From NCBI GenBank assembly GCA_026988115.1, contig JALSLV010000093.1, positions 1-43,323 on the forward strand: a DNA stretch of 43,323 nt, in the 5' to 3' direction. A program made the translations under genes and the position numbers. Numbering within the stretch: position 1 is the stretch's first letter; each line of letters starts with the position of its first letter. This DNA comes from Lysobacterales bacterium (GTDB lineage Bacteria > Pseudomonadota > Gammaproteobacteria > Xanthomonadales > Marinicellaceae). This document shows, piece by piece, positions 14,742 to 35,165 of the stretch. The notes beneath the pieces were generated by a model. The model saw only the letters and a list, made by a program, of their open reading frames with translations. It ran no database searches and was not told the DNA's origin.

Positions 14742-16757
14742 TTAAGTTTTAAACCTTAATAACCTTAAAGCATTAACCACCACCAGCAAGGTTGAGCCTT
14801 CGTGAATGGCTACGGCTGAACCAATCGAGGCTATGCCGAAAATTGTGGCTGGTACCAGCAGGGCGACAATACCTAAAGATGCCCATAAGTTTTGTTTAAT
14901 AATAGATTTTGCTTTACGACTTAATTCTATTGCAAAAGGTAAATTATCTAATTTATCTGCCATTAGGGCAATATCGGCAGTCTCTAAAGCAACAGCAGAG
15001 CCCGCAGCTCCCATTGCAATTCCTACGGTGCTTTTTGCCATAGCAGGTGCATCATTGACTCCATCGCCAATCATGGCAACTTTGCCTTCTTGTTTTATTA
15101 ATAGTTCAATCGCAGCGACTTTATCCTCAGGCAATAAATTGCCCATTGGGTCGGTTATGCCCAGTTCTTTGGCTATGGTATTTGCCACTTGCTGGTTGTC
15201 GCCGGTAAGCATTATCATGCGTTTGATGCCGATTTCTTTTAATGCTAATAAAGTCGATTGTGCTTCTTCACGTGCCACATCCATAACAGATATGACTCCA
15301 ATATAGTTGTTGTCATAATAGACAATCATTGCCGTATGTCCTTGAGATTCGAGGTTTTCCATAACTTCATTGATAGCTAAAGGGACATCTTCTTTTGTGA
15401 TTTCTTCAAACAAACGACGGTTGCCAATATAGGCTTGTTTGTCTTCTACTATGGCTTTGACACCACGAGCAGTGAGTGCTTGTAAGTCATTGGCTTTAGG
15501 AATGATTGTATCACCTAAAATTTCTTTACCACCATTGACTATGGCAGATGCCAGCGGGTGATCACTGAGTTTTTCAACAGCTACAGCAATTTTGAGTAAC
15601 TCTTTTTGTGAGGTGTTATTTAAAGCAATAGCATTGGTGAGTTTGGGCTTACCTTCGGTTAGTGTTCCTGTTTTGTCAAACGCCAGAGCATTTAAACTGC
15701 CTAAATCTTCCAAAGGTCGACCGCCCTTTATCAACACGCCTTGTTTTGCCGCTCGTGCCACTCCTGCCAATACGGCACTTGGCGTTGAGATGGCTAATGC
15801 ACACGGTGATGCAGCAACCAATACCGCCATTGCCCGATAAAAACTGTCGGCAAAGGGTTCGTCGATTATCAAAAAAGCAAACAATAAAGCCACCACCGTG
15901 AACAATACCGCAGGTACGAAGTATTTTTCAAATTTGTCGGTAAATTGTTGGGTGGGTGACTTTTGTTTTTCCGCATTTTTGACTAACTCAACCAAACGAG
16001 AAAGCGTGCTGTCTTTTGCCAATTTTAGCACCTTGATTTCTAAGGTGCTACTGCCGTTAATAGTGCCTGCAAAGACACGGTTTTCATCATCTAAATTTTC
16101 TAAAGTAGTCGTGGTATTGGTATTATCTATGGGTGATTTACTCACAGCCATGCTTTCACCTGTTATCGGTGCTTGATTGACCGAGCTGCTACCAGCAATA
16201 ACCATGCCATCGGCTGCAATTGTGCTGTTGGGTTTAATAACAATCACATCATTTAACTGCAACTGGTCAATTTCAACTTCACTTATATTGCCATTGGTTT
16301 GTTTGAGCAAAGCGGTAGATGGTGCCAGTTCTGATAAGGCTTGTATCGACTTTCGTGCCTTGTTCATGGCGTATTTTTCTAAAGAGTGACCCAAAGAAAA
16401 TAGAAATAACAACAATGCTCCTTCTTCCCACTTGCCTAAAGCCGCTGCACCTGCTGCTGCCACTAGCATCAAAAAATCAATTTCAAATTTACCACTCTTA
16501 ACCGCTTCATAAGCTTCAATCAGCGTAAAAAAGCCACCCAGAAAAAAGGCAATTATAAACAAACTCAAAGGCAACCATGCAGGGATGGTTGCCATAAATG
16601 AAAGTATTAAACCCGTGAGCCAAAAAACACCGCTGCCAATGGCAAAATATAACTCGGTTTTTTCGTTGCCAAAACCGTGATTGTGCTCATCACTATGCTC
16701 ATTATTGTGTTCATGGTCTTGGTTGTCGTGATTATGATTATGATTCTGTTCACTCAT
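14742..16757 (-). CDS. P1B-4-type heavy-metal ATPase (CzcP/CoaT-like) with His-rich N-terminus
   Basis: This 671-residue inner-membrane pump lacks an HMA domain. It starts instead with a His/Asp/Glu-rich tail (residues 1-30; about ten His) likely to bind metal. Core motifs are TGES in the actuator domain, SPCALAIS in the sixth helix (about residue 317), phosphorylation motif DKTGTLT (about 360), HP motif SDHPLASAI and GDGVNDAPAMA. The last helix has HEGSTLLVVVNALRLL (His652). The SPC plus HEGST pair defines the P1B-4 group, linked in other bacteria to Co2+, Zn2+, Cd2+ or Fe2+ export. The start overlaps the czcA stop by 8 bp, making it the last gene of the efflux operon. Confidence 0.92.
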   Translation of the reverse strand: MSEQNHNHNHDNQDHEHNNEHSDEHNHGFGNEKTELYFAIGSGVFWLTGLILSFMATIPAWLPLSLFIIAFFLGGFFTLIEAYEAVKSGKFEIDFLMLVAAAGAAALGKWEEGALLLFLFSLGHSLEKYAMNKARKSIQALSELAPSTALLKQTNGNISEVEIDQLQLNDVIVIKPNSTIAADGMVIAGSSSVNQAPITGESMAVSKSPIDNTNTTTTLENLDDENRVFAGTINGSSTLEIKVLKLAKDSTLSRLVELVKNAEKQKSPTQQFTDKFEKYFVPAVLFTVVALLFAFLIIDEPFADSFYRAMAVLVAASPCALAISTPSAVLAGVARAAKQGVLIKGGRPLEDLGSLNALAFDKTGTLTEGKPKLTNAIALNNTSQKELLKIAVAVEKLSDHPLASAIVNGGKEILGDTIIPKANDLQALTARGVKAIVEDKQAYIGNRRLFEEITKEDVPLAINEVMENLESQGHTAMIVYYDNNYIGVISVMDVAREEAQSTLLALKEIGIKRMIMLTGDNQQVANTIAKELGITDPMGNLLPEDKVAAIELLIKQEGKVAMIGDGVNDAPAMAKSTVGIAMGAAGSAVALETADIALMADKLDNLPFAIELSRKAKSIIKQNLWASLGIVALLVPATIFGIASIGSAVAIHEGSTLLVVVNALRLLRFKT

Positions 16758-19700
16758 GTGATTCTCCTGCTTGCATCATTTTAATTTTACCCTTTGAAAA
16801 CCAGGCAAATAAAACGGGTAGGACAAATAAAGTTAAAAAAGTAGCAGTGACCAATCCTCCAACTATAACCGTTGCCAATGGACGTTGGATTTCTGCTCCT
16901 ATGCCATCAGATAATATCATCGGTATTAATCCTAAAGCTGCCACAATGGCAGTCATTAGAACGGGTCTAAGTCGTGAAACTGCACCTTCATAGATATCTT
17001 TTGCTAATTTATCTTTGGTGTTTTCAATCCGTAGATTGATGGCTTCCACCATCACTACGCCATTTAATACGGCAACACCAAACAAGGTAATAAAGCCGAT
17101 GGAACTGGGAACAGATAAATATTGCCCTGAAATCCATAAAGAAAAGATTCCTCCAATCATGGCTAAGGGTAAATTGATGAGAATTAACACCGCTTGCCCA
17201 ACCGAACCAAAGGCAAAATACAGTAATAAAGCAATGAGTCCTATGGATAAAGGCACAACAATCGCTAGGCGTTTTTGAGCTCGTTGTTGGTTTTCAAATT
17301 GCCCACCAATATCGACGGTATATCCCGTAGGCAAATCCACTTGCCTGGCAATGGCAGCCCGAATGTCTTTAACCACCGAACCCATGTCTCGGTCTTGTAC
17401 GTTGGCTTGAATCACTACTCGGCGTTGGACATCATCACGACGCACTTGTGGAGGTCCGGATTCTATGCTTATTTTTGCGACATCACCTAAACGAACCCAT
17501 GCTCCAGTTGGTGATTGCAGGCGTAAATCTGCTATGGCGTATTGGTTTTGGCGGAAATTTTTCGCCAAACGCACATAGATATCGTAGCGTTCATTACCAT
17601 TGATGATTTGCCCTGCTCCACTGCCGCCAATACCATCTCGCACTACCGACATCAAGTCACCAACTGACAAGCCATAGCGTGATAACGCTCGACGATTGGG
17701 TTTGACCACCAATTGGGATTCGCCGGCAATTTGTTCCATGGCGACATCTCGTGCACCTGTGACACTTTGCACGGCTTTGACTATTTCTTGGCCTTTTTGG
17801 GCCAATACTTGTAAATCTGAGCCAAATAACTTCATGGCTAATTGGGCTTTGACGCCCGATAACAATTCATCAACACGAGTTGCAATGGGTTGAGAAAAAT
17901 TCAATAACAATCCTGGGATTTTTTCGAGTTTTTCTTCCATTAATAACTGCAAATCTTTGCGGTTGTTGGCACTTTTCCATTCACTTACAGGTTTGAGACC
18001 AATATAAACTTCAATATTGCTGACAGGCTCTGGGTCTCCACCGATTTCAGCACGCCCAATTCGACTCATGGCATAAGTCACTTCTGGAAACTCCATTAAC
18101 ATTTTTTCAAGTTTTGGGGCAATATCTAAAGCCGTGTCTAAACTGGCGGAGGGTGCTAAAGTTGCACGTAGGTTGATGGTGCCTTCTTCAAGTTCTGGTA
18201 CAAATTCTGTGCCCAAACGGGACAATAGAAACAAGGAGGAAACTAACAAAATAACAGCAAATGCCAAGACAATAATTTTAAGCTTCATGGCTTTGGCTAA
18301 AGTAAAGCGGTAGGCTTTTTCCAGTATTTTGACTATCGGGCTGGTTTTGGCTTTGACACCTTTTTGGAAAAAATAACTTGCCAATGCTGGCACAACAATC
18401 AATGAAACCAGTAAAGAGGCAGCCATTGCAATCATAATACTAACAGCCATGGGTTGAAAGAATTTGCCTTCCACACCTTCGAGTGAAAACAACGGAGCAA
18501 ACACCACCATAATAATCGTCACCGCATAGAAAACAGGCTTTGCCACTTCGCGTGCTGCCAACTGGATACGCAAAGCAACAGTCGTATTGTTGATTAATCC
18601 AGTGGATTCAATGTTGTCTTCATCAGCCATTTTGGCACGTTCTTTATCATGGTAACTATCTGGATGTGTGAGGTGTTTGAAAATGTTTTCCATCATCACC
18701 ACCGCACCATCAACCATCATGCCAATGGCAACCGCCAACCCTCCTAATGACATGAGGTTAGCCGATAAACCATTGTAGGACATGACGGTTAATGCCATGC
18801 CTACAGAAAGAGGAATTGAAATAAGTACCAATATTACCGAGCGAATATTCAATAAAAATAACACCAAAACAATAACAATAAAAATAAAAGCTTCAATTAA
18901 GGCTTTGGAAACCGTGCCGACCGCTTTTTCGATTAAATCGGCTTGGTCATAGATTTGTTCAAAGCTCACGCCTTTGGGTAAGGCTTGTTGAATCAGTGGA
19001 ATGCGGTCTTTAATGCCATCAATAGTGACCTTAGTATTTGCACCCATGCGTTTTAAAATAATCCCAGTTACCACTTCACCCACATAGCGAGAACCATTGT
19101 TTTCTGTGCGTTCAGTCATAGTTACCGCCCCTTGACGTATTTCACTACCGAACTCTACTTGAGCGACATCAGCTACAGTAACAACCGTTCCATCAATGGA
19201 CTTTAAAGGGATTTGTCGCAATTGTGCCAAGCCTTCCTCGCCATTACTTAACCAACCCACACCTCGAATAACCAATTGTTCTTGTCCACGGTTCATATAC
19301 CAGCCACCTGCATTGGAATTATTGTCTTCTAAGGCATCAATAACATCGCTTTGAGTCAATTGATATGCCAATAGACGAGATGGGTTAAGATTAACTTGGT
19401 ATTGTTTAACTTGCCCTCCAAAAGATAGAACATCAGTTATACCATCAACAGGCATTAGGATAAGCTTAACAACCCAATCATTGAGTGATCGCAGTGCCAT
19501 AATATCCATACCAGAATCTTTGTCCGCTTTTAAATAATATTGATACACTTGTCCTAAACCAGAAGTGTTCGGACCAATTTCAGGTGTGCCAACACTGCTG
19601 GGAATCAATTCTTTAGCTGATTGCAGGCGTTCAAACACCAATTGGCGGGCAAAATAAATATCTGTGCCTTCCTTAAAAACCACAGTTATACCTGATAATC

Positions 19701-19965
19701 CAGTCTTAGAGATAGAACGAACTTCCTCGACATCGGGTAGGGCATACATGACCGCTTCAATCGGGAAGGTAATGAGTTGTTCAACTTCTTCACTGGCAAG
19801 CCCAGGAGCTTCGGTATTGATAGAAACTTGAATATTGGTGACATCAGGAAAAGCATCGAGATTTAATCGAGGAATATACAAAGTTGCCGCCGCAATCATG
19901 CCGATTAGAGCCAATACCACCAGCAGTCGGTTTTTTACCGACCAATCTATTAATTTGTTTAACAT
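16750..19965 (-). CDS. czcA: Heavy-metal efflux RND pump, CzcA/CusA family
   Basis: The 1071-residue inner-membrane proton antiporter of a tripartite efflux complex. The RND layout is clear: one N-terminal helix, a large periplasmic loop starting RLNLDAFPDVTNIQVSI, helices 2-6 at about 340-560, a second loop, and helices 8-12 at the end. The fourth helix reads AIGMMVDGAVVMMEN (about 412-426). The Asp and Glu of the proton relay are kept, but the DFG of classical CzcA is replaced by AIG, so the substrate cannot be fixed from this motif. Linkage to a P1B-4 ATPase suggests divalent cobalt, zinc or cadmium. It lies 11 bp after czcB. Confidence 0.93.
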   Translation of the reverse strand: MLNKLIDWSVKNRLLVVLALIGMIAAATLYIPRLNLDAFPDVTNIQVSINTEAPGLASEEVEQLITFPIEAVMYALPDVEEVRSISKTGLSGITVVFKEGTDIYFARQLVFERLQSAKELIPSSVGTPEIGPNTSGLGQVYQYYLKADKDSGMDIMALRSLNDWVVKLILMPVDGITDVLSFGGQVKQYQVNLNPSRLLAYQLTQSDVIDALEDNNSNAGGWYMNRGQEQLVIRGVGWLSNGEEGLAQLRQIPLKSIDGTVVTVADVAQVEFGSEIRQGAVTMTERTENNGSRYVGEVVTGIILKRMGANTKVTIDGIKDRIPLIQQALPKGVSFEQIYDQADLIEKAVGTVSKALIEAFIFIVIVLVLFLLNIRSVILVLISIPLSVGMALTVMSYNGLSANLMSLGGLAVAIGMMVDGAVVMMENIFKHLTHPDSYHDKERAKMADEDNIESTGLINNTTVALRIQLAAREVAKPVFYAVTIIMVVFAPLFSLEGVEGKFFQPMAVSIMIAMAASLLVSLIVVPALASYFFQKGVKAKTSPIVKILEKAYRFTLAKAMKLKIIVLAFAVILLVSSLFLLSRLGTEFVPELEEGTINLRATLAPSASLDTALDIAPKLEKMLMEFPEVTYAMSRIGRAEIGGDPEPVSNIEVYIGLKPVSEWKSANNRKDLQLLMEEKLEKIPGLLLNFSQPIATRVDELLSGVKAQLAMKLFGSDLQVLAQKGQEIVKAVQSVTGARDVAMEQIAGESQLVVKPNRRALSRYGLSVGDLMSVVRDGIGGSGAGQIINGNERYDIYVRLAKNFRQNQYAIADLRLQSPTGAWVRLGDVAKISIESGPPQVRRDDVQRRVVIQANVQDRDMGSVVKDIRAAIARQVDLPTGYTVDIGGQFENQQRAQKRLAIVVPLSIGLIALLLYFAFGSVGQAVLILINLPLAMIGGIFSLWISGQYLSVPSSIGFITLFGVAVLNGVVMVEAINLRIENTKDKLAKDIYEGAVSRLRPVLMTAIVAALGLIPMILSDGIGAEIQRPLATVIVGGLVTATFLTLFVLPVLFAWFSKGKIKMMQAGESHE

Positions 19966-19976
19966 GCTGATTTCTC

Positions 19977-21128
19977 CTAGTGCCCATGCGGATCAAATCC
20001 GCCTTTGGCAATTTCTGAGGCAACGAAGAAAGCACCAGTTGTCACAACTTTTGTGCCTGTCTTTAAACCAGATATTTCACGGTTTTCTCCCAAAACACGT
20101 CCCAATTCTACTTCTACTGCCGCAAATTGGTTGTGTTCAGATTCTACAAAAACAACCCAGTCTCCATCGGCACTTCGCATCAGTGCATTTTCAGGAACTG
20201 CTGTAACTGCTTTTTTGGTTTTCATAGAAAAGTAAACATCGGCAAATTCGCCAGGATGTAAGCTATCATTTGGATTATCTATGAGCAAACGAATCACCCG
20301 TGTACGGGTTTTTTCATCGATGGTATGGGCTTCTTGAGAGACAGTGGCAGAATAATAATTTCCACCTACTTTAACTTGAGCTAATGTTCCTACGGGCAAA
20401 TTCAATTGTATTGATGCTTGAATTCTTGCCTCAACCCACAATTGCGACTCATCACTAAGTAACATCAAAGCATGTCCTGCCTCAACACGTTGACCTTGTT
20501 GAAAGTCATCAGTCAAAATTGCGCCACCGATTTGAGCCGTTAAAGTGTATTCTCCAAGCGCTGCAGATTTTTGTTTAATTGCTTGGGATGAAAGACCAAA
20601 GGATAATAAGCGAGCCTGAGACAATTCAAAGTTGTTTTGTGCCTTTATGAAACGGCTGGCACCTACTGCCTGACGACCCAATTGTTTGACACGATTCCAT
20701 TCTGCTAAATTCACTTTTAATGTAGCTTGAGCTTCGGCTACGGACTCACTAAATAGAGTCACTAATTTTTCGCCTTTTTTGACATGATCACCCAAGGCTT
20801 TGTGTCGTTTCATGACCACTGAATCAACACGAGGCGAAACCAAATAACTGGTGTAGCCATTGGCTTGAATTTCACCAGGGGCATAAATGCTGTAATTGAA
20901 ATTTCGAGCTTGTAATGTTTCTACTTTAATATTAACTAAATCTTGTTGTTGTTGGCTTAAAGTAACACCTGTGCTTTCTTCATGTTCATCGCCATGTTCA
21001 TCATTATCAGCGTGTTCATCATGGGTTTCTGTTTGTTGATTGTGGCCTTGTTCTGCATATGCAATACTAGGAACTGTTGCACTCATTATAAATACAGTGA
21101 TGAGTGGTATTATTAATAATTTATTCAT
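19977..21128 (-). CDS. czcB: RND efflux periplasmic adaptor, CzcB family, His-rich
   Basis: The 383-residue membrane fusion protein joins CzcA to the outer-membrane channel. A signal peptide (1-25, cleavage after AYA) is followed by a His/Asp/Glu-rich segment (about 26-52, HDEHADNDEHGDEHEE) that probably captures metal in the periplasm. Next come the lipoyl/barrel-sandwich half (..YSIYAPGEIQANGY..), the alpha-helical hairpin (about 120-180), the second lipoyl half and a beta-barrel (..GEFADVYFSM.., AVPENALM). The C-terminal DPHGH adds another His pair. The start overlaps the czcC stop (ATGA), indicating translational coupling. Confidence 0.92.
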   Translation of the reverse strand: MNKLLIIPLITVFIMSATVPSIAYAEQGHNQQTETHDEHADNDEHGDEHEESTGVTLSQQQQDLVNIKVETLQARNFNYSIYAPGEIQANGYTSYLVSPRVDSVVMKRHKALGDHVKKGEKLVTLFSESVAEAQATLKVNLAEWNRVKQLGRQAVGASRFIKAQNNFELSQARLLSFGLSSQAIKQKSAALGEYTLTAQIGGAILTDDFQQGQRVEAGHALMLLSDESQLWVEARIQASIQLNLPVGTLAQVKVGGNYYSATVSQEAHTIDEKTRTRVIRLLIDNPNDSLHPGEFADVYFSMKTKKAVTAVPENALMRSADGDWVVFVESEHNQFAAVEVELGRVLGENREISGLKTGTKVVTTGAFFVASEIAKGGFDPHGH

Positions 21129-22363
21129 TTCATTGTCTCTGTTGTCTGGGCTTGTGTTGTATCTAATTGTGCTGTATCGAGCAATAGTTGTATCAAAGCG
21201 GATTGATACTCTTGCTCTAGTTCGATACCAGCTATTAGGCCAGCAGTTCTTTGTTGTAAAGTTAATAAGTATTCGGTCGTACTAATATCGCCAATACTCC
21301 ATTGTTTTTGTAATAGATTTTCACTGTTTTTATCTCTTCCCTGCATGAGGTTTTGCCATTTTTGAAACCTTCTTTTGTACTCTTTTACTGCCGCTTGTGA
21401 CGCTTTAATTGCAAATAATTGTTTTCTTCTAACTGCGTGATAATTTGCCTCAGATGCCATTGCTTGTTGGTCTGCTGCTTTATACAGCAGACTAAAGTTG
21501 TTGCGCACATATAAAGGGATGGATAAAGACAGTGATAACACATCATCTCTACCGAGTTTTCCTGCGCCTAAACCGATTGTAGGGTCGGGTTTTTTCCTCT
21601 TTAGGGCTATTTCAGCAGCAAAAACTGATATTTCCCATTGAGCTTTAGCGGCTTGTACGGCAGGGTGATCATCGACCAGTTCTTCTGCTGTTTTATCAAT
21701 GACATGACTCCATTGAGATTGAGAAAGTGTGATTTTACGTTTATTCCAGTCAGGTAATAATTCACCAAGTGATGCTTCAATACGCCGAAGTTGTGCTTGA
21801 ACTCTTGCCGATTGACCAAAGCGTTGAGAGAGGCTTAAATAAGCCAGCTCCGCATCGAGCTGCCCCAAGTCCCCACTTTTTGTGCGCTTTTTAACAATTT
21901 CCAACAAGTTTTCTAATTGGTTTTCTTGTTGAGTAACGAGTTGTGATTGATTTTTTATAGCCTGCCAATTGATTAGTGCATTTAATGCTTCTGCCATTTT
22001 CGTCTGCAAGACGAAGGCATAATTTTTTTGAGCAGAAATTCTGGCAAATACAGCTTGTTGTTTTCGTGAACCACGTTTATTGCTCCAGTCAATGGTTTGA
22101 TTGATACCCAAAGTGTAAGTTCTATCAGGTCCCTCGTTACCGAAATCAGTTGAAAGTTCTGGATTATAAGTGGCTTTTTCTAAGCTGTCAGCTTGATAAA
22201 GATTGGCTTTCATTGATTGTCTTGCTGCCAATACTTGTGGATGTTTGACTATTTGTTGTTTTAACCATAAAAAATCTGGTTGTGATTCTTCTATAGCTGA
22301 AACAGATATGGCAACAACAATTAAGCTTGTTGCTACCAAATATCTTGATATACATTTATACAT
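21125..22363 (-). CDS. czcC: Outer-membrane efflux channel, CzcC/TolC family
   Basis: The 412-residue TolC-fold protein has a signal peptide (about 1-22) and two outer membrane efflux protein repeats rich in long amphipathic helices. Features such as NPELSTDFGNEGPDRTYTLG and LGRDDVLSLSLSIPLYVRNN are typical of the CzcC branch. It would form the trimeric outer-membrane duct for CzcBA. The start has a modest AGGAAA ribosome-binding site. A 113-bp intercistronic region with two inverted repeats separates it from the small czcI-like gene, so it may be controlled separately from its upstream neighbour. Confidence 0.9.
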   Translation of the reverse strand: MYKCISRYLVATSLIVVAISVSAIEESQPDFLWLKQQIVKHPQVLAARQSMKANLYQADSLEKATYNPELSTDFGNEGPDRTYTLGINQTIDWSNKRGSRKQQAVFARISAQKNYAFVLQTKMAEALNALINWQAIKNQSQLVTQQENQLENLLEIVKKRTKSGDLGQLDAELAYLSLSQRFGQSARVQAQLRRIEASLGELLPDWNKRKITLSQSQWSHVIDKTAEELVDDHPAVQAAKAQWEISVFAAEIALKRKKPDPTIGLGAGKLGRDDVLSLSLSIPLYVRNNFSLLYKAADQQAMASEANYHAVRRKQLFAIKASQAAVKEYKRRFQKWQNLMQGRDKNSENLLQKQWSIGDISTTEYLLTLQQRTAGLIAGIELEQEYQSALIQLLLDTAQLDTTQAQTTETMK

Positions 22364-22476: not shown

Positions 22477-22821
22477 TTAAATAATTGGAGGGCGTAAATC
22501 TGGAGTTATTGTGCGATTCTTAAAGCGGTTTGAGTAGGTGTTAAGTAAATTTGAATTGTATATAAGTGACTTTATACTCATTAAATCATTGAGACTAATA
22601 AATGTTATTGAGTGTGAAGCACAAAAATGATGACAAGAATGATTAACTTCAGTCGTTGTGGATTGATGAGATTTGAGTTCATTACCTGAAAGCGTATTTT
22701 CGGTCACCAAAGTCTGAATATGTTCTTCTTCACTGTGATGGGGTTGGTAAAAATTTGCCATAGCAATTGTTGATTGCAAAGCAAATAAAACCAATAAGAA
22801 GTGAAGAGAGTTATATTTCAT
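22477..22821 (-). CDS. Small exported protein at head of czc operon (CzcI-like)
   Basis: The 114-residue protein has a signal peptide (about 1-22, cleavage after AMA). The mature part is polar and His-rich (QPHHSEEEH, NHSCHHFCASH) with two cysteines in the HSCHHFC cluster. It ends in TPDLRPPII. Small periplasmic proteins with a His/Cys patch and a terminal RPP motif are often found directly upstream of czcCBA; the best known is CzcI of Cupriavidus. I assign it to that loose group by architecture and position, not by confident homology. MITE copy 1 ends 15 bp upstream of its ATG and offers a TATAAT aimed at the gene. No clear Shine-Dalgarno is present. Confidence 0.6.
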   Translation of the reverse strand: MKYNSLHFLLVLFALQSTIAMANFYQPHHSEEEHIQTLVTENTLSGNELKSHQSTTTEVNHSCHHFCASHSITFISLNDLMSIKSLIYNSNLLNTYSNRFKNRTITPDLRPPII

Positions 22822-22831
22822 AAGTGAAGTA

Positions 22832-22836
22832 TATTA
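22832..22836. repeat. Target-site duplication, left of MITE copy 1
   Basis: TATTA here is repeated exactly at 22996-23000 on the other side of the 159-bp element. Confidence 0.8.
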
Positions 22837-22995
22837 GAAACCTTTGCATAATTATAGTGACGAGTAAAAAATGATTAAATTCACCAGCTTTTCGCTAAAA
22901 ATCTCGCCAATAACTGGTTATTACCTTCAATTTTTAACTCAATCTGGCAAATTTTCTCTATTTTTTCTTTCGCCATATAGTTATGCAAAGGTCTC
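22837..22995. mobile_element. MITE-like element, copy 1 (159 bp)
   Basis: The element has 20-bp terminal inverted repeats: GAAACCTTTGCATAATTATA at the left, and GAGACCTTTGCATAACTATA as the reverse complement of the right end. A central palindrome AATAAC-TG-GTTATT lies at 22909-22922, and there is no coding capacity. It is identical to copy 2 at 34034-34192 except for base 3 (A here, G there). Flanking TATTA duplications prove insertion. On the minus strand TATAAT (22851-22856), with a weak TTTAAT -35 at 17-bp spacing (22874-22879), points out of the left end towards the czcI-like gene. An IS with matching ends would be needed to mobilise it; none is inside the window. Confidence 0.9.
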
Positions 22996-23000
22996 TATTA
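22996..23000. repeat. Target-site duplication, right of MITE copy 1
   Basis: TATTA, the exact duplicate of 22832-22836. Confidence 0.8.
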
Positions 23001-23098: not shown

Positions 23099-23596
23099 TT
23101 AAGCAACATTATCCTTAACAATTTCTGGTTTTGTTTTTTCTTCTGTTGCTTCTTCTTTAGAAGTTTCTAAAGCTTGGTTGTTGTTATTAATTTCAATTTT
23201 TCGAGGTTTCATGGCTTCAGGAATTTCTTTCATTAACTGAATATGAAGTAAGCCGTTTTCCATGTTTGCTGACGTCACTTTGACATGGTCAGCTAATTGG
23301 AATTTACGCTCAAATGAGCGTGTAGCAATACCACGGTGAAGGTATTTGCGTTCAACCTCATTTTCGGTTTTTCCTCGAACAATAAGTATGTTTTGTTCGC
23401 TGGTTATGTCTAAATCATCTTGTGTAAAACCTGCTAAGGCAAGAGTGATTTGGTATTTGTTTTCATCCAGTGTTTCGATGTTATAAGGAGGGTAAGACGC
23501 ATTGTTTTGGTCTATCCTATGTGCTTGGTTCATCATTTGAGCCATGCGATCGAATCCAACTGATGTGCGGAATAAAGGGGTTAAATCTAAGTTCAT
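23099..23596 (-). CDS. ibpA: Small heat shock protein, IbpA/Hsp20 family
   Basis: The 165-residue ATP-independent chaperone holds unfolding proteins in a refoldable state. The N-terminus (DLTPLFRTSVGFDRM) and the YPPYNIETLDENKYQITLAL stretch match E. coli IbpA closely. The alpha-crystallin domain covers about 38-135, with ..RGIATRSFERKFQLAD... It is followed by the oligomerisation motif IEI in PRKIEIN. An extra acidic/Lys-rich tail of about 25 residues (EEATEEKTKPEI) extends beyond E. coli IbpA. It is preceded by a sigma-32-type promoter and a structured leader, and has a strong AGGAG ribosome-binding site. Confidence 0.95.
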   Translation of the reverse strand: MNLDLTPLFRTSVGFDRMAQMMNQAHRIDQNNASYPPYNIETLDENKYQITLALAGFTQDDLDITSEQNILIVRGKTENEVERKYLHRGIATRSFERKFQLADHVKVTSANMENGLLHIQLMKEIPEAMKPRKIEINNNNQALETSKEEATEEKTKPEIVKDNVA

Positions 23597-33727: not shown

Positions 33728-34021
33728 TTAGCCTTTGTTCTTGAAGGCTTGTTTAAATGCGGTTAGTTTTTTATCTGATACTTCTTTTTGGTACTTATCT
33801 TTCCATTGCGTATAAGGCATTTTATAAATGTATTGCCTTGCTTTGTCTTTTGGCAACTCTACGCCGAGATTTTTTGCTTCTTCTGTCATCCAATTGGCTA
33901 GGCAATTACGACAAAAATTAGCGAGAATCATTAAATCTATGTTTTGCACATCTTTTCGATTATCTAGATGATTGATTAATCGATCGAAAGCTTTGGCTTT
34001 AATTTCTATTTCTTTATCCAT
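33728..34021 (-). CDS. DUF1244 family protein
   Basis: The 97-residue protein matches the DUF1244 pattern: FDRLINHLDNRKDVQNIDLM, then ANFCRNCLANWM with a Cys-x2-Cys pair, and a second half with YKMPYTQWKDKYQ. The family is small, soluble and of unknown function, common in proteobacteria. MITE copy 2 begins 12 bp upstream of its ATG, with a perfect TATAAT facing the gene. The ATG has no clear Shine-Dalgarno. Confidence 0.88.
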   Translation of the reverse strand: MDKEIEIKAKAFDRLINHLDNRKDVQNIDLMILANFCRNCLANWMTEEAKNLGVELPKDKARQYIYKMPYTQWKDKYQKEVSDKKLTAFKQAFKNKG

Positions 34022-34028
34022 TACTGTG

Positions 34029-34033
34029 TTTGC
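34029..34033. repeat. Target-site duplication, left of MITE copy 2
   Basis: TTTGC, repeated exactly at 34193-34197. Confidence 0.8.
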
Positions 34034-34192
34034 GAGACCTTTGCATAATTATAGTGACGAGTAAAAAATGATTAAATTCACCAGCTTTTCGCTAAAAATC
34101 TCGCCAATAACTGGTTATTACCTTCAATTTTTAACTCAATCTGGCAAATTTTCTCTATTTTTTCTTTCGCCATATAGTTATGCAAAGGTCTC
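34034..34192. mobile_element. MITE-like element, copy 2 (159 bp)
   Basis: The sequence equals copy 1 (22837-22995) in 158 of 159 bases and lies in the same orientation. Terminal inverted repeats are GAGACCTTTGCATAA-T/C-TATA (20 bp, one mismatch), with the central palindrome at 34106-34119. It sits between divergent genes. On the minus strand TATAAT (34048-34053) points to the DUF1244 gene; at the other end TATAGT (34173-34178) points to folD. The ATG inside the right repeat (34180) is in frame with folD but is not its natural start. Confidence 0.9.
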
Positions 34193-34197
34193 TTTGC
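34193..34197. repeat. Target-site duplication, right of MITE copy 2
   Basis: TTTGC, the exact duplicate of 34029-34033. Confidence 0.8.
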
Positions 34198-34233: not shown

Positions 34234-35079
34234 ATGACAGCACAAATACTAGACGGTAAATTAATATCTCAACAATTAATAGCAAGCATTGGAGAAAAAA
34301 TAGCTAAACGTATTGAAAAAGGGCACTCACCTCCTGGTTTAGCCGTTGTTTTAGTTGGAGATAATCCCGCATCAGAAATTTATGTTAGAAATAAGGTCAG
34401 TGCTTGTGAAAAAGCAGGAATAAACTCAGTATCATTTAAGTTTCCACGAACGGTATCAGAAAAAGAATTGTTCCAATTGATTGATGAACTCAATGAAGAT
34501 GAAATGATTCACGGTATACTTGTGCAACTGCCATTGCCGCAGCATATTCATGAAGTTGAAGTAACCAATAGAATTCATCCCAATAAAGATGTCGATGGTT
34601 TCCATGCTGAAAATGTTGGTCGATTAGCATTAAGACAACCTGGGCTAAGACCCTGCACGCCACGTGGAGTAATGACATTGTTGCATGCTTATGACATTAT
34701 TCCAAAATCAAAACACGTGGTTATCGTTGGCGCATCCAATATTGTTGGCCGCCCATTAATGCTTGAAATGCTTTATGCAGGAGCGACCGTAACGGTTTGC
34801 CATCGTTTTACCAAAGATTTAGAAAAACACGTAAACAGTGCTGAGATATTGTGTGTTGCTATTGGAAAACCAGGCATAGTAAAATCTGAATGGATTCCAA
34901 ATGATTGCATCGTAGTTGATGTGGCAATCAACCGCAAAGAAAATGGTAAGCTGTGTGGGGATGTGGATTTTGAAGCGGTTAAACCAAAAGTGGCATGGAT
35001 AACACCAGTACCTGGCGGCGTGGGTCCCATGACAGTAGCGACTTTGATGCAAAACACTTATGAGGCAAGCTTGTTATAA
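34234..35079 (+). CDS. folD: Methylenetetrahydrofolate dehydrogenase / cyclohydrolase
   Basis: The 281-residue bifunctional enzyme interconverts 5,10-methylene-, methenyl- and 10-formyl-tetrahydrofolate. The active-site region YVRNKVSACEKAG places catalytic Lys at residue 54, exactly as in E. coli FolD, only when translation begins at ATG 34234 (MTAQILDGKL). GILVQLPLPQHI, the NADP-binding GASNIVGRPL (family usually GRSxIVG) and PGGVGPMTVATLM are present. An in-frame ATG at 34180 would add 18 residues read from the MITE end and is rejected as the start. The native promoter region upstream has been split by the MITE. Confidence 0.95.
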   Translation: MTAQILDGKLISQQLIASIGEKIAKRIEKGHSPPGLAVVLVGDNPASEIYVRNKVSACEKAGINSVSFKFPRTVSEKELFQLIDELNEDEMIHGILVQLPLPQHIHEVEVTNRIHPNKDVDGFHAENVGRLALRQPGLRPCTPRGVMTLLHAYDIIPKSKHVVIVGASNIVGRPLMLEMLYAGATVTVCHRFTKDLEKHVNSAEILCVAIGKPGIVKSEWIPNDCIVVDVAINRKENGKLCGDVDFEAVKPKVAWITPVPGGVGPMTVATLMQNTYEASLL

Positions 35080-35129: not shown

Positions 35130-35165
35130 GCTTTTATTTGGATGCAAAGGTCTTGTAAATTAATT

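Follow-up and report, generated by a model that had tools for sequence, protein, structure and literature searches.

A 159-bp MITE of a Lysobacterales bacterium with a conserved hairpin core and two kinds of ends

The window (the whole stretch of DNA analysed here, 43,323 nt) is contig C93 of the 3.51-Mb, 121-contig genome G000 and carries two copies of a mobile element. This element is not just an IS with a deletion: paired changes have preserved its hairpin across the bacterial family, and one strand is favoured. We read it as a non-autonomous MITE that is moved in trans and has changed its transposase partner, and in which the conserved part is a hairpin specific to one strand, probably of RNA; we put the probability of this reading at roughly 0.7. 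From the sequence data we infer that mobilisation occurs in trans, that the element is transcribed, and that selection acts on RNA and not on single-stranded DNA.

Two copies in the window

The features around the two insertions are listed below. R1 is a covariance model of the hairpin core without the ends (short calibration, rough E-values).

22477..22821, minus strand: 114-aa ORF with no Pfam match; start 15 bp from copy 1
22832..22836: target duplication TATTA, left of copy 1; perfect; G006 has an empty site with one TATTA
22837..22995, minus strand (hairpin strand): MITE copy 1, subfamily A, 159 bp
22854..22978, minus strand: hairpin core of copy 1; 132.2 bits to R1, E 1.2e-24, subfamily A being among the sequences from which R1 was built
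22996..23000: target duplication TATTA, right of copy 1; perfect
23099..23596, minus strand: Hsp20/alpha-crystallin gene, adjoining copy 1
33728..34021, minus strand: DUF1244 gene, divergent from folD
34029..34033: target duplication TTTGC, left of copy 2; perfect; G006 and G008 have empty sites with one TTTGC
34034..34192, minus strand (hairpin strand): MITE copy 2, subfamily A, 159 bp
34051..34175, minus strand: hairpin core of copy 2; 132.2 bits to R1, copy 2 itself being part of R1
34193..34197: target duplication TTTGC, right of copy 2; perfect
34234..35079, plus strand: folD; copy 2 ends 41 bp before its start

The original prediction had placed two 159-bp elements here, and both were found where it put them, with element position 3 (A versus G) as the sole difference. 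As it had also stated, each copy has a perfect 5-bp duplication of its own, TATTA for copy 1 and TTTGC for copy 2. Both copies end in GAGACCTTTGCATAA-type termini (GAGACC). Terminal inverted repeats (TIRs) are present, but the predicted length of 20 bp is slightly generous: over 20 bp, 19 positions match in copy 2 and 18 in copy 1, and the first 15 bp are perfect in copy 2 and agree at 14 of 15 positions in copy 1. The predicted central palindrome (AATAAC/GTTATT) exists as well; it forms no more than the tip of a hairpin spanning the full length of the element. With up to three mismatches allowed, the 15-mer end occurs seven times in the window, versus 1.8 expected. An isolated 12/15 end match beyond folD (35140-35154) has no element body; by eye, a terminator-like inverted repeat adjoins it.

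Copy 1 lies between hsp20 and the 114-aa ORF, with the hairpin strand in the sense direction. The ORF is the head of a unidirectional cluster (14742-22363) of P-type ATPase, RND pump, membrane-fusion and outer-membrane genes, a cluster of the heavy-metal efflux type. Copy 2 is placed between the divergent DUF1244 and folD genes. Another copy directly follows folD in G004 (L216 1655-1815, G004:C568), and another sits at the opposite side of hsp20 in G008 (L198 1182-1343, G008:C143); thus the same neighbourhoods have been struck more than once. In G000 (L034 449-3498, G000:C26), a 38-bp element remnant forms the start-codon region of a 999-aa protein, GGDEF-type by eye, with a subfamily-B end at its stop.

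The family, its mobility and its age

The prediction of a MITE family with 5-bp duplications was borne out by a survey of copy number and flanking repeats. In G000 we found 15 near-full-length copies of subfamily A (91-100% identity, two of them in the window), truncated pieces besides, and 52 exact 12-mer ends. Subfamily B shares the ends of subfamily A and has a homologous interior; of its G000 members, six measure 158-159 bp, four 227-228 bp and one 130 bp, and a minimal one has 43 bp. The 27 elements checked for duplications (15 of subfamily A and 12 of subfamily B, length variants included) have perfect 5-bp flank repeats in 22 cases and repeats with at most one mismatch in 26; for every other repeat length between 2 and 9, at most 4 of the 27 have a perfect repeat. 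In relatives, the 5-bp duplication is perfect in 19 of 40 copies. The duplicated targets are five mostly AT-rich bases. A length of 159 bp (too small for a transposase), TIRs, duplications, empty sites and dispersed copies together identify the element as a MITE, and its mobility is well supported. A collection of plasmids gave no element match.

The comparison of empty sites that had been proposed yielded, in congeners, single-repeat empty sites for both loci. The folD/DUF1244 site is empty, with one TTTGC, in G006 and G008 and holds the element in G004 and G003; compared with G000, G004 shows 3 differences in the 159 positions of the element and 45 in 1193 positions of its flanks. The hsp20 site is empty, with one TATTA, in G006; G004 is without the element there and its spacer has diverged, and the element of G003 shows 0 differences over 156 bp. 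From this distribution, both insertions are younger than the split from G006, and the folD insertion is also younger than that from G008. The shared insertions make both older than the separation of G000 and G003, and the folD insertion also older than that of G000 and G004. The claim that near-identity means recent transposition was therefore upheld in part: empty sites exist, but the folD insertion is common to three species and the hsp20 insertion to two. A relative with both copies in diverged form had been named as evidence against recent mobility; G003 carries both, but their sequences are identical over the 144 and 156 bp compared. ‘Recent’ is correct at the scale of the genus, not at that of strains.

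Several loci touch on the limits of the family. Minimal 43-bp elements, hardly more than two ends, occur at L032 517-559 (G000:C16), with a TTATA duplication, and at L075 8383-8425 (G004), with TACTA. At L064 3019-3038 (G019:C2), the 20-bp sequence GAGACCTTTGCATAAGTCTC amounts to two overlapping ends with AGTTT at each side; it may be an even smaller element, or chance. The loci L039, L043 and L045 have single end matches and no element body, and we regard them as chance or remnants. A composite transposon suggested by GAGACC ends 1557 bp apart at G000:C57 was rejected: its right part is an independent 228-bp subfamily-B element, and the left match has no duplication. At L023 439-2975 (G000:C11), four direct copies of GCGACCTTTGCGTTACGCTTTTGA surround a transposase and, by eye, a small toxin-antitoxin-like gene pair; this looks like a cassette or a repeat array unrelated to the element.

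A partner among IS5-type elements

The original prediction could not name the parent IS. Its type can now be named as an IS5-family IS of ∼1.2 kb with GAGACCTTTGCATAA-type ends, present in relatives (congeners and other proteobacteria). A search of the G000 assembly itself found no transposase with such ends; there was one weak match (E 7e-4). The six DDE_Tnp_1 matches of G000 were rejected as the parent IS: none has these ends in the stretch examined. Contig ends truncate three of the six, so the assembly could lack a collapsed IS. At contig ends C89, C17 and C15 of G000 (L016, L017 and L018), where the assembly breaks, another IS with ends like TTAACCCTGCTAGATA interrupts copies of the element. 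Its start suggests the IS630 type. These loci are thus junctions with another IS and were ruled out as parent-IS ends.

The MITE has partners with matching ends elsewhere: left ends with a transposase in G004 (3′-truncated) and in G006 (at contig ends), and complete relatives in G045. In G004, the end GAGACCTTTGCATAATAAATTC is followed by a 3′-truncated reading frame of 262 aa that encodes an IS5-family transposase (NF033581, 192.2 bits against a cut-off of 140; DUF772 and DDE_Tnp_1). Parent-type transposases score 192.2, 271.7 and 204.7 bits against this NCBIfam model (cut-off 140). In G006 the left end of one parent-type IS occurs at two sites, with a 160-bp overlap that contains one mismatch and with different flanks; both lie at contig ends, as is expected of a collapsed repeat. 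Complete parent-type relatives of 1.16-1.25 kb were found in G045 (68% identity) and in records named Methylococcaceae, Thiomicrorhabdus and Azospirillum. Among 12 two-ended parent-type IS, the 5-bp duplication is perfect in three, matches at 4 of 5 positions in one and is absent in eight. One parent-type IS5 element (L153 990-2394, G045:C114) is inserted within a hairpin element whose ends are of the GAGACCTCTGCATAAGTC kind.

A second set of ends

Three cores in G000 sit in elements with other ends, (C/G)AGACTGTGAAAGTATT, which we call class C. The class C set measured comprises 15 of 20 fetched stretches together with L047-L049 and L310 (the other five stretches have GAGA-type ends); all 19 elements, from seven genomes of the genus, are exactly 159 bp long. 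Their duplications are 4 bp long, perfect TTTA or TAAA in 12 of 19; a 5-bp duplication occurs in none of the 19. In 7 of 19 the flanks are palindromic, of the GACTTTAGTC kind (6 or more of 8 positions). A 150-bp element with class-C-like ends (L271 851-1000, G004:C520) adjoins a subfamily-A copy; it breaks the 159-bp rule and is in no count.

Ends like those of class C are found on two IS of 1724 and 1725 bp with IS1182-family transposases (363.4 and 374 bits, cut-off 270). These IS, L084 and L089, have CAGACTGTGAAAGTATT ends and a 490-aa transposase and are not the partner of the window copies. In the two complete copies, the only ones available, there is no perfect 4-bp flank repeat.

A core alignment (A2) was made that leaves out 4 of the 47 rows of the alignment A1 described below and adds three class-C cores. 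In a tree of 48 chosen cores without ends, rooted on a distant pair of genus g4, class C forms one clade (bootstrap 98) placed among the IS5-ended classes; supports of the enclosing nested clades range from 34 to 82. The tree fits a single change of ends, short of proof.

A hairpin kept by paired changes

Folded as RNA, the 159 nt form one long, imperfect stem, with −62.3 kcal/mol (z −11.4) for the minus strand of the window and −46.4 kcal/mol (z −8.6) for the plus strand; the DNA fold is stable as well (z −6.2). All 69 copies, near-duplicates included and oriented by sequence similarity before energies were compared, have the lower RNA energy on the same strand. The same holds for 19 of 19 class C elements, although L049 with 60-nt flanks folds slightly better on the opposite strand.

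Alignment A1 contains 47 of the 69 copies; those within four mismatches of a kept copy or outside 150-163 bp were dropped. Its consensus stem has 55 pairs, with 96.0% of cells paired versus 83.9% in shuffled controls, and with changes on both sides in 32 of 55 pairs versus 20.9 shuffled. The covariation score is 0.370 versus 0.151 (sd 0.006) in the shuffle control, which is inflated by sequence relatedness, and at most 0.096 for slides, which preserve relatedness, yet favour a structure that was itself obtained from these sequences.

G-U is favoured over A-C. The 44 pairs found from either strand of A1 contain 63 G-U and 28 A-C cells, and columns with a G-U excess outnumber those with an A-C excess by 19:5; the union of pairs has 234 G-U versus 71 A-C cells. 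Changes out of Watson-Crick pairs, placed on a tree, lead to G-U in 49 and to A-C in 24 cases (44 pairs, p 0.005), or 83 and 35 for the union of pairs. Changes confined to individual copies are weakly skewed (26 G-U, 13 A-C), and raw transitions do not differ significantly between paired (124:94) and unpaired (48:42) columns (Fisher p 0.61). The hairpin structure is thus kept at the level of element lineages. A greedy script also produced a set of pairs meant to be ‘strand-neutral’ (47:11); it was discarded, being mis-registered and having only 14 of 32 pairs in common with the structure.

The core extends beyond the genus. R1 has matches in 26 of 33 genomes of the bacterial family: in 11 of 11 in the genus of the element and in 13 of 18, 2 of 3 and 0 of 1 in three others. 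The genus with 2 of 3 (g4) includes two genomes with at least 105 R1 matches each (105 and 106, near the 106 scored); element ends in these genomes read GGAAGC(T/G)CTGAT(T/C)GAATC, and CTAG/TTAG adjoins L320 (two examples only). A tandem array of four hairpin cores, in steps of 148 to 155 bp, lies at L316 1501-2070 (G023:C9). For a comparison across genomes we used 18 of 31 R1 matches and L047, omitting six on the other strand, three tandem, one partial, one with a long insertion (L065) and two subfamily-B copies (L302 and L088); this set and the class C set overlap by two elements. All 19 elements have their lower energy on the same strand, the strand having been fixed by R1, whose scores differ widely between strands (129 versus 41 bits for L302). 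More than one Watson-Crick type occurs in 34 of 38 pair columns, and the 38 pairs seen from both strands contain 41 G-U and 7 A-C cells, with columns at 19:1.

These figures bear on three other readings. An ordinary MITE could owe its palindrome to its origin from IS ends and have its arms kept alike by quasi-palindrome correction at the DNA level, with no structural selection. Template switching in replication can indeed produce double changes in the absence of selection, and the undifferentiated raw transitions, the weak single-copy skew and the orientation of the copies all suit this account: where neighbouring genes agree, the hairpin strand is sense in 16 and antisense in 12 of the 63 copies examined in G000, G003 and G004, i.e. 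without sense bias, in a count that uses crude ORF calls and includes some shared insertions repeatedly. Such correction, however, should treat G-T and A-C alike, whereas G-U-rich columns exceed A-C-rich ones by 19:5 and 19:1; moreover, the hairpin persists under other ends, and so does the length, in 19 of 19 elements. We consider this reading unlikely, though still a serious competitor.

A somewhat poorer candidate is a hairpin that acts as single-stranded DNA, at replication forks or as a folded substrate of transposition or recombination. G-T wobbles would likewise stabilise single-stranded DNA hairpins of one strand, the stability of the DNA fold agrees with it and a constant length of 159 bp would suit a DNA substrate. 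The clean 4- and 5-bp duplications and the IS5 and IS1182 partners nevertheless point, by what these families suggest, to DDE transposition of double-stranded DNA.

Very improbable is a family of structured small RNA or cis-regulatory genes located between repeats by chance. Its structure would covary, as seen here, and it would lie outside ORFs, as 62 of the 63 copies do (overlaps with ORF ends reach 38 bp); yet transposition is evident from the target duplications, from the empty sites with one repeat and from the many copies that are unlinked, and the empty sites contradict a gene family of this kind. No Rfam covariance model matched at its gathering score in the window, and five loci had sub-threshold matches only, to miRNA families.

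Proposed mechanism

We return to the MITE with a selected, strand-specific hairpin. In the mechanism we propose, an IS5-family transposase would recognise the GAGACCTTTGCATAA-type (GAGACC) ends, move the element in trans and duplicate five mostly AT-rich bases, and an IS1182-type transposase would act in trans on the CAGACTG ends of class C. A transcript of the hairpin strand would fold in host UTRs or intergenic RNA, so that the element is tolerated or useful, as proposed for ERIC/NEMIS. The ends would then be the replaceable part, the same core bearing IS1182-family ends too.

A bolder version, to which we give even odds, is a mobile RNA hairpin that survives the loss of one transposase after another. 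Selection across the family would maintain this hairpin, which is specific to one strand and in most cases exactly 159 nt long. Its ends, together with transposase family and target rule, would have switched from the IS5 type (5-bp, AT-rich duplications) to the IS1182 type (TTTA duplications of 4 bp, frequently within palindromes), and another genus may have a third type (GGAAGC(T/G)CTGAT ends). MITEs are often read as deletion derivatives with an irrelevant interior; here the interior is conserved, the ends are exchangeable and the total length is mostly constant.

Comparison with known systems

MITEs, IS5 partners and hairpin transcripts are already known; a 2024 review describes stable stem-loops as a general feature of MITE transcripts (PMC10969869). 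Searches of the open-access literature brought up nothing that we recognised as a description of the element itself, or of a single covarying core that bears ends from two IS families.

Among the closest known systems are BrickBuilt_4, a MITE of Porphyromonas gingivalis with the ends GAGACCTTTGCA, and the IS5-linked ISNme1 of Neisseria, with the ends GAGACCTTTGCAAAA (PMC4596501). These ends are nearly identical to those of the present element, and an IS5-family partner is common to them (ISPg1/ISPg9 for BrickBuilt). BrickBuilt elements have a 23-nt minisatellite and duplications of varying length, whereas this element is mostly a 159-bp hairpin with regular 5-bp duplications.

ERIC/RU-1, YPAL/RU-2 and Correia/NEMIS are likewise mobile sequences of 100-200 bp with long-stem transcripts (PMC2229807, PMC2267715; reviewed in PMC10969869), and a transcript of this kind, i.e. 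one long stem, is predicted for our element. ERIC is reported to affect neighbouring mRNAs in an orientation-dependent manner, and YPAL mobility was deduced from empty and filled sites; effects of ERIC and NEMIS transcripts on adjacent mRNAs are reported in PMC2229807. ERIC and Correia have TA at their termini (PMC2229807, PMC2267715), whereas this element has GAGACC ends and 4- or 5-bp duplications. The element works like Correia/NEMIS/ERIC but is not a member, because its ends are GAGACC with 5-bp duplications and not TA termini. ERIC, YPAL and NEMIS also have other ends and other hosts; here the ends identify the IS partners, and the core occurs with a second set of them. Whether MITE hairpins are by-products or selected RNAs, a question raised for ERIC, YPAL and NEMIS, thus becomes testable with a conserved interior and exchangeable ends, through natural compensatory variants and two transposases on one core.
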